From NCBI RefSeq assembly GCF_040436345.1, contig NC_133218.1, positions 28,161,710-28,225,709 of the forward strand: a DNA stretch of 64,000 nt. Reading direction: 5' to 3'. Every line of letters starts with the position of its first letter. Within the stretch, counting starts at the first letter, position 1. Under the pieces are notes generated by a model that saw only the letters and a program-made list of their open reading frames with translations, ran no database searches and was not told the origin of the DNA. The translations under genes were made by a program, and so were the position numbers. Below are positions 3,451-55,931 of the stretch, one piece after another. The stretch is from Pagrus major. Its lineage: Eukaryota; Chordata; Actinopteri; Spariformes; Sparidae.

Positions 3451-6400
3451 AGATACATGGGATCCATTCCAGCTGAACCCAGTGGGTTCTGAGAAGGAAT
3501 CTAAGAGACGATGTTTCCAATTTGCCCAGTACCTGGTGGCTGTTTTTGTGGGGATCGCTGTTCTAACCAGTGCTGTTCTCGCTAAGGTAGGATTTTCTAT
3601 CTATCTGCCTGTATGTCTGCCTATCTGTCTATCTATTGATGAAGTTATTCATCTATCTATCATTGCTGTCGAGGCACAGAGAAAGAAGTATCACCACAGT
3701 GTCGCTGGCACTAAATGTGGAGCTTTAGGATAAAAATGTTAGGGTTGTTTTGATGCTCATAATAGAAACACCACCAAAATTGCCTTTAGTCATCTTCGAT
3801 AAAAGTCAGAGTGCCCACAGCCTGTTCTCTCAGAAGCAGACTCCTAAAAACATACAGTATATATAGTATGTCTTCATCACAGTTACCAGATTCAATTACT
3901 GTAGGGTCTTTTTCCTTTCTCTTTCTTTTTGAAGTCTGTAATTTGATAAATTACACGAAGCATTTATTTTTGCATGAATTGCAATTTTGCATGACAGTGC
4001 TTTGATTTGTTTTGACGTGATTACTTGTCCGTCAAACAGTAATTGTTGGTTCTGTGACTTTTTTCCTTGGGTTTTTTTTTTTTTTAATAAGGTCAGAATT
4101 TCTCTAGACGCAGTTCTTTTCTTCTTTTGTCCAGTCACGGTGTCTGCTGCTGTGCATGCAAACTTCCCAGTAGTTCCTCATACTTTTAAACATATAGATG
4201 ATATCTATTAATTTCTTTTGAGAGGAAAATAAAGTAGCTATATATATAGAATATAGTGGCCTATGTCAAAGAAGTATAATAAGGAGTGTAACAGGAACCT
4301 GGAACCTGCTGTGTGCTGTATGTTGTATGTCTCTTACTGGCAGCAGTGTTTGAGTTTGTTCCTGTGTTTAACATTTCCTTTAACAGTTCCTAGTAACTAT
4401 TTAACCAACCCATGGTCGTTAGAAAACTGAATACAGTTGTAAATGTATTAGTGTCACAATATTTGGAATTTCTAACTTTGTGACACAACATTGAGGGCAT
4501 AAATTTCAGGTTTTTATTAAAAGATGAATATAACATGGCTCGTGTACTGTGTGTTACGCACAACAGCATCTAAGCTAATTTACTTATGGATACAATTAGA
4601 AGAGTAGAAGGAAGCAGACGTATGTGAGCACTGTGTATCAACTCTCTGACAAAGATTAGAGAGAGCAAAAAAGTGCTTTGAAGGGTGTATCAATGCTGTG
4701 GAAAATGAGTGTTGACACTGTTTCAAATAGTTATTAACAACAAAAACACATTACTTATATGAAAATATTTCAGACTAGTTTTTGGTAAAGTGATTTGAGA
4801 TAAAACTTAATTATTTGATCTCTATGTACCAAACTCTTCTCTCAGCAGTTCTCTTATTCATTTTCTCTCTATCAATCCTCCTCTCTCTCATATGTGCATG
4901 CATTTTCATAGTCTGCCTCTCTGCTTTTGCCTCTATTCCCTTCGATTTCTCATCTTCCTCCTTCAGCCTCATCTTTCTCTGTCTTTCTTGAATCACAGGA
5001 TTATGCTCGGACTCGAAAACAACGAATTCCCTAGATGTCATTGTCTCTGTTTCACTACATGAGAAAACTGATTAAGTTTTTAACCTGATGAACTTCCCTC
5101 ATGGCTTGAGGATAAATGACGACAATAAAGCAATTGGGTGTCCTAGATAGGAGTTACAGTAAGGCACGAGGAGCTGGAAGCAGGAAGGAATGCAAGCAAC
5201 CCCATTTTTTTATATTTACAGTTTATAGGGTTGCTGCTGCTGCTACAAGCAGGGCTTTACTGTAACTGCACTTAAAACAGATGAGTGTCAGTCAAATGTA
5301 TTCTTATGTGCCTCTCTAAAATAGAGAGAGGGAAATATATTACATATCTAACTTGAATATGTCATAAAGAGTTGTTAACTTTTGGTTTTCTGTCTCATCT
5401 GGTCAAACTGGTTTTCTTTAACATACTTTTGGTCTCTGTCCAATCAGGGGTCTCTGTTGGTGTTGTCAACATTGTCCAGTCCACACTCATTGCGCGACAA
5501 AAAGGAAAAACAGTTCTACATGCTGATGTTGGTTTTCTGCCTGGTCTTCCCCAACTTCCTGGTGTTTTTGAAATCACTGTGGAGGGTTGCCTTCAAGAGC
5601 TTTGTCCAGCCCAATATGAAGACCATGTCATTTGTAAGTTTTTCTAAAGCATACTCATTTATGTATTGATGTGTCCTGCATTGCATGTAAGTAGTTTTAT
5701 TTTGCATTTGAATTGATGTTGCATTTACAAAACTGTAGTTTTCAGTAGTTTTGAGTGTGACAATATTCTGCATTTATATGGGTTGTTAAACAGCATATTC
5801 CATCTGGATATTCAGAATCAGTTATCAGGACATGTGTACAGCGCAGTTGAAATATGCATCTCACTTGTTTTTTTTTACCGCAGTTTACATCTATATAAAT
5901 CATAGAAACTCATGACTACCCTCCGGTATTATCTGGCATTATCAGTCACTCACTGATTGCCATAACTGAGTAGGCTGCCTGTTGCACAAGTCGTATGAGT
6001 CCAAGTCCGATATCATGCATATCTGTAAACAGCAGAGCTTGAAAAACACAGTTTTTCAAAAATGTGCACAAAGGTGACAGTGAGGGTACACCATGGGAAC
6101 AACATGACTGCAGTGTAGGGCATACATCATAATGTTAGTATGCACTGCTGCCTTTAAATGGGAAGATGAGTGGAATATTCATTATCATAAGTCGTGTAAA
6201 CAGCTCAGTTGGAATATTGTGTTTTTGGGAATGAGGGAAAAAAATCTGAATATGTTGCGTTAACATGATCAGTGTCAGTATGATTTTAATAAATGATAAA
6301 TGTCAATCTAAATCTTAACTGTGATGCTTAAATGTGACGCTTTCACCCACCTGAAAACCAAAGAAATACTGTGAGCAAACGTAATGGTGTTTGTCTTTGT

Positions 6401-25900: not shown

Positions 25901-28900
25901 AAATCTAAAATACAATTTAAATAACACAGCACTAGCACGTCCAAAAAATGCAAAGATGTGCTCAGGTTAGAAAATTGTTTCAGGTTATTGGCATCACATC
26001 ACACCTTGGGCGGAGAACACTGGACCACTAGATCGACTTCAGGGATGTCCAATCCACGAGCTGCCACGTTGGTGGCAACCAGAACCTCGAAAGCCCCATT
26101 CCTGAAGCCCTTCAGCGTTGTCTCTCTCTGTTTCTGTGGAATATCACCATGGAGGGACTGGGCACTCTGAAACATACAAACAAAATAAAAATGAGACATG
26201 TACGCTTGAGAATCTGCTCACTTCTACATAGCTCAAGTGACACACTATGCACCAAAAATTAGAAACTAAAAGCAGAAAACAAAGGTGAGACGACAGCCAT
26301 TCTCAAACTAATTCTCATTCAATGACGTGATGTCCATTGATCATTTTACAATCTATAAGTGTGTTTACGTATGTTTAAGTGTGCGTCTACCTGTTTGAGG
26401 GATGAATTCAAGGAAAGTTCGTTGACATCTTTCTTTGTCTCACAGAACACAATGGTTCTGCCGTGGCTGCCGCTGTAAACCTGGATCACATCACCGAGCA
26501 CGGCTGCACGCTGTGACCAGTGACAAGTTATGGCCAGATGCTACACAGACAGAGACACATAGGAGAGAGAGAGCGAGAGAGAGAGACAGAGAGAGGGAAA
26601 CCAGGGAGTGAGAACAGAGGCATTTTCATTAATCCAGCTGGCAGACTTTAACTCTTACTTCATTATAATTCCACTGGTGTTGACAGTGATAAATACCGCA
26701 ATTTTTACTGCACATTAACTTGCTTGGCTTTTCTGGTGGAGATACATGTGAGTGGATTTTACAGGCTTTAACTGTCCCTGCTTACAGGCAACTGAGAGAC
26801 CTAAGCCTAAAAAAAAATAATAAAAAAGACCACTGTAACGCTTGTCAAACTAAACCCAACACACACCGGTTACCTCTTTCACCTCTGCCAACTGATTTTC
26901 TCTCTCTTACACACACACTTACTTCCACAGTTGTTGCAGCTTTCTGTGTTTTCTTGCCAATCAGGTCAACATGTTTGCACCCTGGCCTCATGTATTTCTT
27001 GGCAACCTCGTAGACCCAGGGGGGGCAGGTGGCCGAAAACAGAAGAGTCTGCGGGTTGGAGTCGGAGTCTGGAGACGAGCACAAACACACAGAAAACATA
27101 ATCGATATATCAAGCTTCCTTTTATTGTCATTTACACTCTATACCAGACAGGTACATAGTGGAACGAAATTATGTTGCATCTGGCTCAAGACGCTAAAAA
27201 CTACATTTTAAAAAAATCAGCACACAAAGCAAAATCCTAACACTAAACCCTATACACATATATGAACACAAACACAAAAAACAGGAACACATACAATTTG
27301 TATACTGTATGCAAGGCAACAAAAACACACAGATTTACTTTACCTTTCTGATATGATGAGGCCAGAATCTCTTCAACCTGTTCTGCAAATCCCATGTCCA
27401 ACATCTGGTCTACTTCATCCAGAACGACATGCTTCACTTTAGAGAGGTCGAGTTTATTGTTCTGGAGGTGGTCCTTAGTGCGACCAGGGGTACCGACCAA
27501 AACATCGATACCATTACGGATAGCTTCGACTAGACAGAAGGAGAGGAGTGTCATTATTAATACTAATGCATGAAGTATGTTGTTCAAACAGCCAAACAGA
27601 AAAAAGACACTGAGCTGAGCTGGCATTTAAATAGTCAACATAAAAAATAACATTAAATATCAAGAACCCAAAGAAAATAGATGAACATATTCAATTATTT
27701 GAATGCTTTCAGAATTACTGCTATTAAGGACATATTTGTATTTTTGCATAACACTTACTCTGTGGCATATATGAGCTGCCTCCATAGAAACAAGCAATAG
27801 AGACTCTCTTGCTAACATCTTTAAAGTCCTTAGCGACCTGGATGGCTAACTCTCTGGTTGGAGTCAACACCAGGACCTACAGACAAACAGAGAAGAGACT
27901 CAGTCATACACAAACATACACAGAGAGCAACTGATAGTGGGACTGATGTTTGTCTTCAGTCATTTGTGTGAAAGTGTGTGTGTGTGTGTGTGTGTGTGTC
28001 TGTGTGTGCGCGCACCTTGGGAGCCCGGCCTCTGGCGTAGTCCACCGTACTCTTCTGGATCTTCTCCACCAAGGGGATGGCAAATGAGAAAGTCTTCCCT
28101 GTTCCTGTTCGGGCTTGGGCAATTACGTCCTCTCCATCATATACAGGATTAAATGTCTTCGCCTGAATGTCAAACAGGTAAGTGACTCCCCGAGCTGAGA
28201 AAGTGACAGAAAGAAAGGTTTTTTGGGGGCAGAGCAGCAAACAGGATATTGGACATGTACCAGGGCCTCTCTGCTCTTGAGCCACAGCGGTAACAACTAA
28301 GGTATAAACATACATATAGTACAGTTCTATATCTTGAGAGTAAAAATGTAAATATGATATCTACCTTTAAGTTTATCGATGGTGACTTGGGAGATCCTGA
28401 AGTTGGAGAAGGCCCCTTCCTTCTGCTCTGGTGTCTCCTCCTAAAGAAATAAACAGTCAGTTTATGTGACTGTTACCCTACAGCTGACTTTGAGGAATGG
28501 CTGTTAATAAAAACCAAACGCGTTGAGGCAAACGTTGAACAATCAAAGATAATGTAATATGAGTATAACAATCAAATCAAATGAATGAGAATAATATAAG
28601 TTGATATCATTTTTGAAACTTTTAAATGCTTTCAAGACGTGCTAAGTTGTAAAATTAGTTGCTTTGCAGTCATCTTGCGGTTTCTTTGTTACTTAATTTA
28701 TGAGTACAATCGTGTAATATTGCGATATAACAAACTAAAATACACCAGCATAATATTATCATATTGTAATACCTAAAATAAGGATTAAACAACAGCTTCC
28801 ATAGGGGACACCTTGATTGTTCTTCAACCAACCAACAGAACTCAAACATCCAACAGAATAGTTATTCAGATTACCGCAAACACCAAGTCATCATACATGG

Positions 28901-32175: not shown

Positions 32176-32371
32176 GTGGACCGAGAGGAAAGCTCAACTG
32201 AACATGGTTAAACACGGTTCATCTTCTCAGCTGATGACGTCATAGAGTCGCAGCAGAAAACACACTGCCTCTTTAATGAGAAGATTGCAGTGAACATCAA
32301 AACAGTAATGACAGTAACTGCCCAGCAGATGGCGCACTTGCAACTTAACTTGTTTTTACAAGACCTTGTTT

Positions 32372-35300
32372 ATGGAAGAATTATCCTATCTTTATTCAAG
32401 GGCATAGATTTTCAGTCTGAGAGCATGATTTCATTCCTTTTCAGTGACACAGCTCCTTCTCGTGCTCAGATTTATTCTCCTCACGCTCACATGTTTGCTG
32501 CTTTCTTTTTCAAAATGTGTGCTTGAACTCAAAAATCACATGCTTGTGCTCACACATCTTCTTCTTGCACACAAAAATTTCGCTCGCATTCAAATATGTC
32601 CTGTGCGCGCTCAGATCTAAAGTCTGCGTGCTCAGATCGACACATCCTCGCTCCGCGCCGCCGGTACAGGTGTAGTGCCGAGAAGAGACTGCTTGCCGAA
32701 AAACGACTGCCCCCGACGGGAACGCGCATCAGTTCAGAGGAAGTGGGCGTAGGTCTACTACGGGTCAGCTGGCAGACGCAGCACCGAGAGAAATGTTTTT
32801 TTTTACTGTGCAGTCCTGTAGCCCAAGTGAAGAGGCTACGGAAAAAGAACGGCGCAGATAAAAAAGTAACCTGATGTTTCCATAATGTAGGCTAGTTGTC
32901 AACAATTGATGAGGGTAGATGCTTTACCTTGCCACTTTTATTGTTGTTGTTGTTGTTATCGTTGTTGCAATGTGATTTTACACCGCTTTGAGTTACAGGG
33001 TGCAGTCACTTTTCGGCAGGCCCTGCCGAAAAGTGACTGCACCCTGTAACTCTGGATTGCAAGGAGTGATATTGACCAAATTCACTGTACATGCACCTGG
33101 TTTCCTCTACTATTAATGCTGAAAAGACAGAGAATGTAACCCCTCCCAATCCAGAGTTGTAGGGTGCAGTCACTTTTCGGCAGGGCCTGCCGAAAAGTGA
33201 CTGCACCCTGTAACTCTGGATTGCAAGGAGTGATATTGACCAAATTCACTGTACATGCACCTGGTTTCCTCTACTATTAATGCTGAAAAGACAGAGAATG
33301 TAACCCCTCCCAATCCAGAGTTGTAGGGTGCAGTCACTTTTCGGCAGGGCCTGCCGAAAAGTGACTGCACCCTGTAACTCTGGATTGCAAGGAGTGATAT
33401 TGACCAAATTCACTGTACATGCACCTGGTTTCCTCTACTATTAATGCTGAAAAGACAGAGCATGTAACCCCTCCCAATCCAGAGTTGTAGGGTGCAGTCA
33501 CTTTTCGGCAGGGCCTGCCGAAAAGTGACTGCACCCTGTAAGTCCTTATTGCAAGGAGTGATATTGACCAAATTCACTGTACATGCACCTGGTTTCCTCT
33601 ACTATTAATGCTGAAAAGACAGAGAATGTAACCCCTCCCAATCCAGAGTTGTAGGGTGCAGTCACTTTTCGGCAGGGCCTGCCGAAAAGTGACTGCACCC
33701 TGTAACTCTGGATTGCAAGGAGTGATATTGACCAAATTCACTGTACATGCACTTGGTTTCCTCTACTATTAATGCTGAAAAGACAGAGAATGTAACCCCT
33801 CCCAGTCCAGAGTTGTAGGGTGCAGTCACTTTTCGGTAGGCCCTGCCGAAAAGTGACTGCACCCTGTAACTCTGTATTGCAAGGAGTGATATTGACCAAA
33901 TTCACTGTACATGCACCTGGTTTCCTCTACTATTAATGCTGAAAAGACAGAGAATGTAACCCCTCCCAATCCAGAGTTATAGGGTGCAGTCACTTTTCGG
34001 CAGGCCCTACCGAAAAGTGACTGCACCCTATAACTCTGGATTTCTGAGGAGTGATATTGACCAAATTCACTGTACATGCACCTGGTTTCCTCTACTATTA
34101 ATGCTGAAAAGACAGAGAATGTAACCCCTCCCAATCCAGAGTTGTAGGGTGCAGTCACTTTTCGGTAGGCCCTGCCGAAAAGTGACTGCACCCTGTAACT
34201 CTGGATTGCAAGGAATGATATTGACCAAATTCACTGTACATGCACCTGGTTTCCTCTACTATTAATGCTGAAAAGACAGAGCATGTAACCCCTCCCAATC
34301 CAGAGTTGTAGGGTGCAGTCACTTTTCGGCAAGTGACTGCACCCTGTAAGTCCTTATTGCGAGGAGTGATATTGACCAAATTCACTGTACATGCACCTGG
34401 TTTCCTCTACTATTAATGCTGAAAAGACAGAGAATGTAACCCCTCCCAATCCAGAGTTGTAGGGTGCAGTCACTTTTCGGCAGGGCCTGCCGAAAAGTGA
34501 CTGCACCCTGTAAGTCCTTATTGCAAGGAGTGATATTGACCAAATTCACTGTACATGCACCTGGTTTCCTCTACTATTAATGCTGAAAAGACAGAGAATG
34601 TAACCCCTCCCAATCCAGAGTTACAGGGTGCAGTCACTTTTCAGCAGGGCCTGCCGAAAAGTGACTGCACCCTGTAACTCTGGATTGCAAGGAGTGATGT
34701 TGACCAAATTCACTGTACATGCACCTGGTTTCCTCTACTATTAATGCTGAAGAGACAGAGAATGTAACCCCTCCCAATCCAGAGTTACAGGGTGCAGTCA
34801 CTTTTCGGCAGGGCCTGCCAAAAAGTGACTGCACCCTGTAAGTCCTTATTGCAAGGAGTGATATTGACCAAATTCACTGTACATGCACCTGGTTTCCTCT
34901 ACTATTAATGCTGAAAAGACAGAGAATGTAACCCCTCCCAATCCAGAGTTGTAGGGTGCAGTCACTTTTCGGCAGGGCCTGCCGAAAAGTGACTGCACCC
35001 TGTAACTCTGGATTGCAAGGAGTGATATTGACCAAATTCACTGTACATGCACCTGGTTTCCTCTACTATTAATGCTGAAAAGACAGAGCATGTAACCCCT
35101 CCCAATCCAGAGTTACAGGGTGCAGTCACTTTTCGGCAGGGCCTGCCAAAAAGTGACTGCACCCTGTAAGTCCTTATTGCAAGGAGTGATATTGACCAAA
35201 TTCACTGTACATGCACCTGGTTTCCTCTACTATTAATGCTGAAAAGACAGAGAATGTAACCCCTCCCAATCCAGAGTTGTAGGGTGCAGTCACTTTTCGG

Positions 35301-35717
35301 CAGGGCCTGCCGAAAAATTTAAATTACGATAACTCTTTTTAGGATTACTTAAGATGAATTATACAATATCCTAAATATGCTGGCGTCTTAAATAGGTGAC
35401 GATTCAAATAGCTGGCTAATATGGTAAATTGGTGTATTTTGAGAGAAGCAGTTTTACAAACAGACCATATGCCTGCCCCTGCGGAGCACTCAAAAAAAGT
35501 GCGAAGGAACGCACCCAAGTGAGCACAAGCATGTGATTTTTTAGTTCAAGCACACATTTTGAAAGAAAGCAGCAAACATCTCAGTGCGAGCACAAAATGT
35601 GAGCGTGAGGAGAATAAATCTGAGCACGAGAAGGAGCTGTGTCACTGAAAAGGAATGAAATCATGCTCTCAGACTGAAAATCTATGCTCTTGAATAAAGA
35701 TAGGATAATTCTTCCAT
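32372..35717. mobile_element. Foldback-like element with long inverted ends and an internal satellite
   Basis: The segment 32372-32553 reappears inverted at 35519-35717, nearly identical apart from a roughly 20-bp insertion in the right copy. Ends are ATGGAAGAATTATCCTATC and its complement. Between the arms are a CpG-rich unique part (about 32560-32880), a short (TTG)n run, a 2.3-kb palindromic satellite (32990-35316) and about 200 bp of unique DNA. Possible degenerate target duplications are CTTGTT (32365) and CTTATT (35719). There is no convincing transposase, so the element is probably non-autonomous. Long inverted ends with internal tandem repeats are the hallmark of foldback elements; the superfamily is undetermined. 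Confidence 0.75.
32990..35316. repeat. 164-bp satellite array, about 14 units, each with a large palindrome
   Basis: Unit centres (GCCTGCCGAAAAGTGAC) recur near 33022, 33186, 33350, 33514, 33678, 33842, 34006, 34172, then a shortened copy near 34330, and 34486, 34650, 34814, 34978, 35142 and 35306. In a typical unit about 38 bp (from CAATCCAGAGTT to TTTTCGGCAGG) is followed at once by its inverted copy, making a near-perfect ~76-bp palindrome, then an ~88-bp spacer. Unit length is not a multiple of three. The recurring 66-aa minus-strand frames are repeat artefacts. Confidence 0.95.
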
Positions 35718-35849
35718 ACTTATTAACCTTATCTTTTAACTAGGGCTGTAGCCAGGATTGTAGAAATACTGAGGTCATGCGTCATAGCCGTGCTAGGCTC
35801 CCCTGCAAGAATATTTTGAAGATTATAGTATGAATCTATGCAGTTTATT

Positions 35850-36350
35850 ATGGGGCGCCGATTGTAAAGTTGCGCACGCTAAAATAAACAGCAACTTTTC
35901 GCCACATTTAGCAACAAACCACGTTTAAAAAACGTATGTGAATTTTTTTATGTTACTTTTGACCAGATTTACAGCAATATTTGTGAACTTTGTGATATTT
36001 ACTTTTCTTGTAAAAATATAATGTCAATGTTAAATCTAAATGTTAAATGTTAAATCTCAATCTAAATGTTAAATTTAAATCTAAATTTTAAATATTAATC
36101 TAAATGTTAAGTATTAAATCTAAATGTTAAATCTAAATCTAAATGTTAAATTTAAATATAAATGTTAAATCTAAATATAAATGTTAAGTATTAAATCTAA
36201 ATGTTAAATCTAAATCTAAATGTTAAATTTAAATCTTAATCTAAATGTTAAATTTAAATATAAATGTTAAATCTAAATGCTAGATGTTAAATCTGTGGGA
36301 AAAAGTTGCTGTTTATTTTAGCGTGCGCAACTTTACAAGCGGTGCCCCAT
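35850..36350. mobile_element. hAT-like MITE with ~57-bp inverted ends
   Basis: The left end (ATGGGGCGCCGATTGTAAAG, continuing through GCGCACGCTAAAATAAACAG) is repeated inverted at 36296-36350 with only a few differences over about 57 bp. Flanking octamers AGTTTATT (35842-35849) and ACTTTATT (36351-36358) match at 7 of 8 positions, the size of a hAT target duplication. The interior is an AT-rich array of TAAATCTAAATGT-like units (about 36015-36290). No coding capacity. Confidence 0.75.
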
Positions 36351-36358
36351 ACTTTATT

Positions 36359-55852: not shown

Positions 55853-55931
55853 GAGAACAGGCAGGCAGTAACCAGGAGATGGCAGTAATTCATTTTAAAG
55901 GAGCCAGTCGCAGTTGAAGAAGAAGACAAAC

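Follow-up and report, generated by a model that had tools for sequence, protein, structure and literature searches.

A fold-back element carrying a 164-bp satellite array is nested in a non-autonomous hAT-type transposon of Pagrus major

The window analysed here is a stretch of 64,000 nucleotides from the genome of Pagrus major (assembly GCF_040436345.1, contig NC_133218.1, positions 28,161,710 to 28,225,709 of the forward strand). It contains a 3.35-kb feature in which two inverted ends enclose a CpG-rich segment and a tandem array (Table 1). The inverted ends of 182 and 199 bp, which had been proposed from the letters of the window (the sequence-only reading), are present. Their alignment is identical in 179 of 202 columns, and gaps, chiefly one 19-bp indel, account for 21 of the 23 differences. 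The outer arms of the feature are complementary over 125 nt at 98%. The 2.3-kb array, which the same reading had described, has a period of 164 bp and 94% matches. The observed/expected ratio of CpG is 1.19 at positions 32571–32860, compared with 0.40 for the window as a whole and 0.21 for the array. Chance does not explain any of these parts of the feature. After a terminal T and A are added, the outer element spans positions 32371–35718. Elsewhere in the window, an open stretch at 55899–56414 matches KIF-binding protein (PDB 6zpg, E 8.6e-26), and open stretches on the minus strand at 27243–28360 resemble a DEAD-box RNA helicase, as judged by eye.

Table 1 Parts of the nested feature, in window positions
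Feature	Position	Strand	Remark
Left 6-bp flank of A, CTTGTT (candidate target-site duplication)	32365..32370	.	5/6 equal to right CTTATT
Left inverted end of A (outer portion of a longer arm)	32371..32638	+	Matches other A copies to about base 267
A internal 33-bp piece, joined to left end by internal deletion, 7-bp overlap with end	32632..32664	+	Away from end in 11 other A copies
TA of uncertain origin, A/B join	32665..32666	.	Other A copies: CTTA
B terminus plus outer arm (325 of 684 bp)	32667..32991	+	99% identical to L015 arm
B terminus, first 17-mer, TGCCGAGAAGAGACTGC	32676..32692	+	
B terminus, second 17-mer, TGCCGAAAAACGACTGC	32694..32710	+	
Satellite array of 164-bp units (14.3 copies), each containing a palindrome of about 75 bases (17-mer in both orientations)	32990..35316	+	
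GAAAA microhomology, array/A join; B right arm absent	35312..35316	.	
A right part including right inverted end	35317..35718	+	
Right 6-bp flank of A, CTTATT (candidate target-site duplication)	35719..35724	.	

The feature consists of two nested mobile elements, an outer element A and an inner element B. The 786-Mb assembly of 25 contigs was searched with the left end of A, which gave 41 matches; the best 40 of 171 first-look candidates were scored. Twenty stretches were fetched around A matches, not every one of which spans a whole copy. Copies of A have the ends TATGGAAG..CTTCCATA and are flanked by 6-bp target-site duplications, which are exact in seven of the 12 copies that could be compared (11 fetched and that of the window); the remaining nine stretches were left out because the copy lacks an end or extends beyond the stretch. 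In the 6-bp flanks 89% of the bases are equal, compared with 24% in mismatched pairs. When lengths from 2 to 10 bp were scanned, only 6 bp stood out, and a duplication of 8 bp is exact in none of the 12 copies. The flanks of the copy L035 contain no duplication. A TA duplication, suggested by the window alone, was rejected, because the aligned copies give 6 bp with the ends named above. Repeats of the motif GCTCR near the ends of A were likewise dropped as a signal, their count being reached in 38 of 2000 shuffles. It had been considered that the inverted ends of the window might be two independent insertions of a MITE; they look like the ends of one insertion, with flanks equal at five of six positions.

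The longest copy of A, L032, is 5436 bp long and has inverted arms of 754 bp with 87% identity. Between the arms lie the Pfam domains DUF4371 (E 2.3e-14) and Dimer_Tnp_hAT (E 8e-10), so that a fuller copy with the ATGGAAGAATTATCC end and a coding part, whose existence had been raised by the sequence-only reading, is found in this genome. The pieces of transposase are located in separate open stretches, and L032 is therefore not claimed to be active. Several shorter copies retain L032 positions 1219–1448 and 4087–4217, one on either side of the coding region, and are thus read as deletion derivatives. The inverted ends in the window are short because the left arm stops matching the other copies after about 267 bp. 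In the window, A is a hAT-type transposon that has long inverted ends and 6-bp target-site duplications; it is internally deleted and non-autonomous. It shares with the hAT superfamily the inverted ends, a target-site duplication of fixed length, and the hAT domain pieces of the longest copy. The usual duplication of hAT elements is 8 bp long, and A differs in its 6 bp and in its arms, which reach about 750 bp in L032.

Two observations concern sequences in or similar to A. Element positions 2169–2677 of L032 are self-inverted (about 510 bp, perfect in length, 92% identical to their own reverse complement). A neighbouring element at window positions 35849–36351 has a 67-bp inverted end that starts with TATGGGG, candidate 6-bp flanks GTTTAT and CTTTAT (five of six bases equal), and an internal AT-rich minisatellite at 36014–36294; its ends and the length of its flanks resemble those of A.

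The borders between the two elements can be followed base by base. In 11 other copies of A, GCCGCCGG or a variant of it continues into CTTA and more A sequence. In the window, GCCGCCGG is followed by TA, which is an exact fit to neither element, and then by B. On the right side, the array runs into A at a common GAAAA, and the same place is uninterrupted in nine other copies of A. The two pieces of A that flank B are 328–344 bp apart in L038, L039, L040, and L046, in the orientation of the window, and 1172 bp apart, not about 330 bp, in L036. The right arm of B was thus lost, and probably some 330 bp of A as well. The left arm of B in the window is cut at 325 of its 684 bp.

A search of the genome with the CpG-rich segment, in which the best 40 of 294 first-look candidates were scored, identified 39 copies outside the window with 97–99% identity. 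Their matches start at query positions 93–101, not at the query start, indicating that the second element begins near position 32667. The segment, which had been called CpG-rich and unique, is CpG-rich, but from about 32667 onwards it is the terminus of the dispersed family B. A pattern of this terminus (at most two mismatches) has 89 matches genome-wide, and a pattern of the inner arm has 107, 100 of them listed; the reversed pattern, used as the control for each, has none. The 189 listed B markers fall into 93 clusters. Most copies start with CAGG or CCGG and continue with TGTAGTGCCGAGAAGAGACTGC; single-base variants occur in some, and the flanks vary from locus to locus. The first bases deviate in L012 and L022, and the outer 63 bp of the left arm are absent from L025. 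Inspection by eye of the open stretches that reach at least 110 aa in L001–L028 revealed no coding interior of B.

Twenty stretches were fetched by the B terminus, not by the satellite. Two arms are present at 12 of these loci; the number includes L025, L028 with its partial left arm, and L010, for which a marker just beyond the fetched stretch suggests a second arm. The arms are 684 bp long and inverted, with about 98% identity to the L015 arm in two-armed copies such as L015, L017, and L022. The inner 36 bp of the arm match the satellite unit at 94–100%, and the number of units enclosed by the arms goes from zero to about 40, with both orientations represented. A stretch at arm positions of about 475–570 in L015 resembles, as judged by eye, the ends of Tol2-like hAT elements. 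In L017 (974–2477) and L019 (1035–2867), on two different contigs, the flanks are 99.5% identical over 200 bp; the unit numbers differ, one and three. Since they agree in both flanks, the two copies are a single insertion, duplicated afterwards along with its surroundings, and some copies of B have thus spread inside larger duplications. Next to the B termini at C4:36591141-36591512 and C2:4959986-4960625, the array starts only about 50 and 150 bp away, respectively. Shortened left arms like that of the window may be frequent elsewhere.

The other eight loci (L009, L011, L013, L014, L018, L023, L024, and L026) are one-armed. A 9-bp remnant of the right end is kept in L011, and the array of L023 reaches the end of the stretch. 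Palindromic arrays are difficult to assemble, and L009 contains a run of unknown bases, so one-armed copies, including that of the window, could be assembly faults at the arrays. This is improbable, given that the two sides of the window's feature belong to one A copy with matching flanks, and that one-armed forms also occur in L014 and L024, which contain at most a single partial unit and are thus easier to assemble.

The satellite belongs to B, which is nested in A. Satellite unit sequence of at least 120 bp is present in 18 of the 20 B stretches and in none of the 20 A stretches. The two B stretches in which no unit of this length was found, L020 and L024, both keep the central palindrome. 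Among the listed part of 499 unit matches, 27 arrays were grouped by hand, and for 26 of them the nearest listed B marker is at most 5 kb away, which is true of 0.13% of the genome. The exception, at C9:27889501, is without a listed B marker; it may still neighbour B, because seven of the 107 inner-arm matches are absent from the list. Of the 27 arrays, that of the window alone has one of the 41 scored A matches, which are the best candidates, at a distance of 50 kb or less.

The sequence-only reading had assigned the satellite to the 182-bp ends, in a single fold-back element with 182- and 199-bp ends and a 164-bp satellite of its own. In the window itself the ends do enclose the array and the flanks match, but the A stretches without units, and the sampled arrays that lie beside B and, apart from one, far from A ends, make such an element extremely improbable. 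Within the sample, the satellite was not seen elsewhere together with these ends, an outcome that the reading had itself named as counting against its proposal. Its idea of a mobile, fold-back-type source of the satellite holds in a changed form, with B as the carrier.

About 75 bases of a single unit are predicted to form a hairpin (z −11.2; reached in none of 200 shuffles). The halves of the palindrome carry TGCCGAAAAGTGACTGC, and the B terminus contains two tandem copies of this 17-mer with two mismatches each. Outside B, the window contains no occurrence of the 17-mer within three mismatches. The satellite could alternatively be an independent tandem repeat that B repeatedly entered or captured, and not a product of B. 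The unit has a stretch that is unmatched by the inner arm, and the arrays are found in either orientation relative to the arms, as this origin would allow. Its probability is low, however, considering the match of the inner arm to the unit, the terminal 17-mer of B within the unit palindrome, and the B marker listed near all but one of the sampled arrays.

Units tend to resemble their neighbours. Among 189 full units, defined as covering at least unit positions 3–162, the nearest relative is in the same locus for 63%, compared with 9% after shuffling. The mean divergence of units differs little, being 3.0% within loci and 3.8% between them, which is weak evidence of strong local homogenisation. 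Copying of arrays as blocks between loci was rejected, since three unit trimers are shared, compared with 1.9 after shuffling, and 582 of 2000 shuffles are as high. The similarities of the units can be read as a few founder units followed by local expansion. Irregular unit spacings recur within L010, L016, L022, L023, and L026 (for example, 47 in L022; 80 and 388 in L023; 150 and 280 in L026) and look like locus-specific higher-order repeats. An exact satellite 21-mer has no match in IMG/VR and GTDB contigs. MOSAT of fish was set aside as a named relative of the satellite, because the part of the source available to us gives no sequence for comparison.

No consistent target-site duplication of B was found in eight two-ended copies (L012, L015, L016, L017, L020, L021, L022, and L027). 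L019, which is the same insertion as L017, the incomplete L025 and L028, and L010, part of which lies outside the fetched stretch, were left out. Duplications of 8 bp or of TA, tried as candidates, are inconsistent among the eight copies. The same kind of test detects the 6 bp of A, so the missing duplication of B is informative, but not final. Just inside the ends of B, there is an exact 3-bp match in four of the eight copies and an exact 4-bp match in three; over 4 bp, 25 of 32 bases are equal, and at least this number was obtained in 720 of 40320 permutations. As neither a transposase of B nor a consistent duplication was found, we infer its transposition from its sharp ends in unrelated flanks.

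One-armed copies mostly end at a palindrome. In seven of eight readable cases (seven fetched loci and the window), the end is located at most 25 bp from a palindrome centre. Only L013 departs from this, and L023 was not among the cases counted. The chance of at least seven of eight ends within 26 bp is 0.002 in a test that was devised post hoc. L014 and L018 end 7 and 8 bp past CGGCA, where the real terminus extends 9 bp. The remaining ends are 0, 14, 15, 23, and 28 bp past CGGCA, and that of L013 is elsewhere. No duplication was seen at one-armed ends.

It is possible that B moves without a cut-and-paste enzyme, as fold-back DNA captured at chromosome breaks by end joining. Such capture would account for the missing duplications, which the same procedure recovers for A, and for the one-armed copies, eight of 20 B loci; the extra TA at the window join and the ends near palindrome centres also fit. 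Nevertheless, the outer end of most B copies varies by no more than a few bases, a constancy not expected of random capture, and the short matches inside the ends could represent a short duplication. We therefore regard end joining as a real, although rather unlikely, route.

The palindromes might also act as spare transposon ends, the array being a set of amplified ends that seeds new arrays. Each unit has the terminal 17-mer in both orientations, so an enzyme could use any palindrome as an end. The enzyme of B would pair one real terminus with any palindrome of the array and cut close to the centre of that palindrome, thereby moving one-armed pieces of whatever unit number. The clustering of one-armed ends near palindrome centres and the stops of L014 and L018 close to the offset of the real terminus favour this idea; the scatter of the other one-armed ends and the lack of duplications at them speak against it, and we consider it doubtful.

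The history of the locus is very probably that of a fold-back element B inside the non-autonomous hAT-type A, in which B brought the satellite, the array grew locally, and the window copy was subsequently damaged. B landed within A. In a two-armed B, the inner ends of the arms are unit-like, and a variable number of units lies between them. The spread of B would take the satellite to new sites, with the proteins for transposition most likely supplied in trans and the 17-mer as their putative binding site. At each site, the array would lengthen and turn over through local duplication. In the window, B is missing about half of its left arm and all of its right arm; the latter probably went, along with some 330 bp of A, in a break at a satellite palindrome that was rejoined at GAAAA.

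The locus appears to be a vertebrate example of a satellite linked to a fold-back element that has dozens of dispersed, closely similar copies. Some copies of B lack a full unit and others have up to about 40, so the transition from the centre of the element to an array can be followed in stages within one genome, and the palindrome that repeats the terminal motif of B makes the idea of binding sites testable. The locus also illustrates that nested insertions can pass for a single satellite-bearing element. A search of the literature for such an element gave no match. This does not prove the element to be unpublished, and A and B may already be named in Repbase or Dfam.

Like other fold-back elements, B has very long inverted repeats that make up much of the element, and internal tandem repeats. 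Helentrons are not known to have long inverted ends, in contrast to the 684-bp inverted arms of B. DINE/Helentron elements, in the part of a review available to us, are similar to B in having a central tandem array tied to satellites (PMC9659126), and no consistent target-site duplication was found for B. A table of the same review places Tetris, DINEs, and Xmix among satellite-linked elements. The closest case to B that we found comes from Drosophila virilis, whose fold-back transposon Tetris contains TIR-220 satellite repeats and has target-site duplications of 8–10 bp; it is likened to B here by its description in the accessible part of the report, not by sequence (PMC4079207). Both elements are non-autonomous and have long inverted ends and variable numbers of internal repeats tied to satellite arrays. 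In both, the repeat and the outer end have a stretch in common, which is 37 bp at about 80% in Tetris (PMC4079207) and the 17-mer at two mismatches in B. The authors of that report, citing Galileo, suggest that the repeats supply additional transposase-binding sites (PMC4079207). The repeats of Tetris are located within both inverted ends, whereas B has one array between its arms, with a palindrome in each unit, and none of the consistent duplications of Tetris. B works like the Tetris, DINE, and Xmix elements and is filed under none of them.
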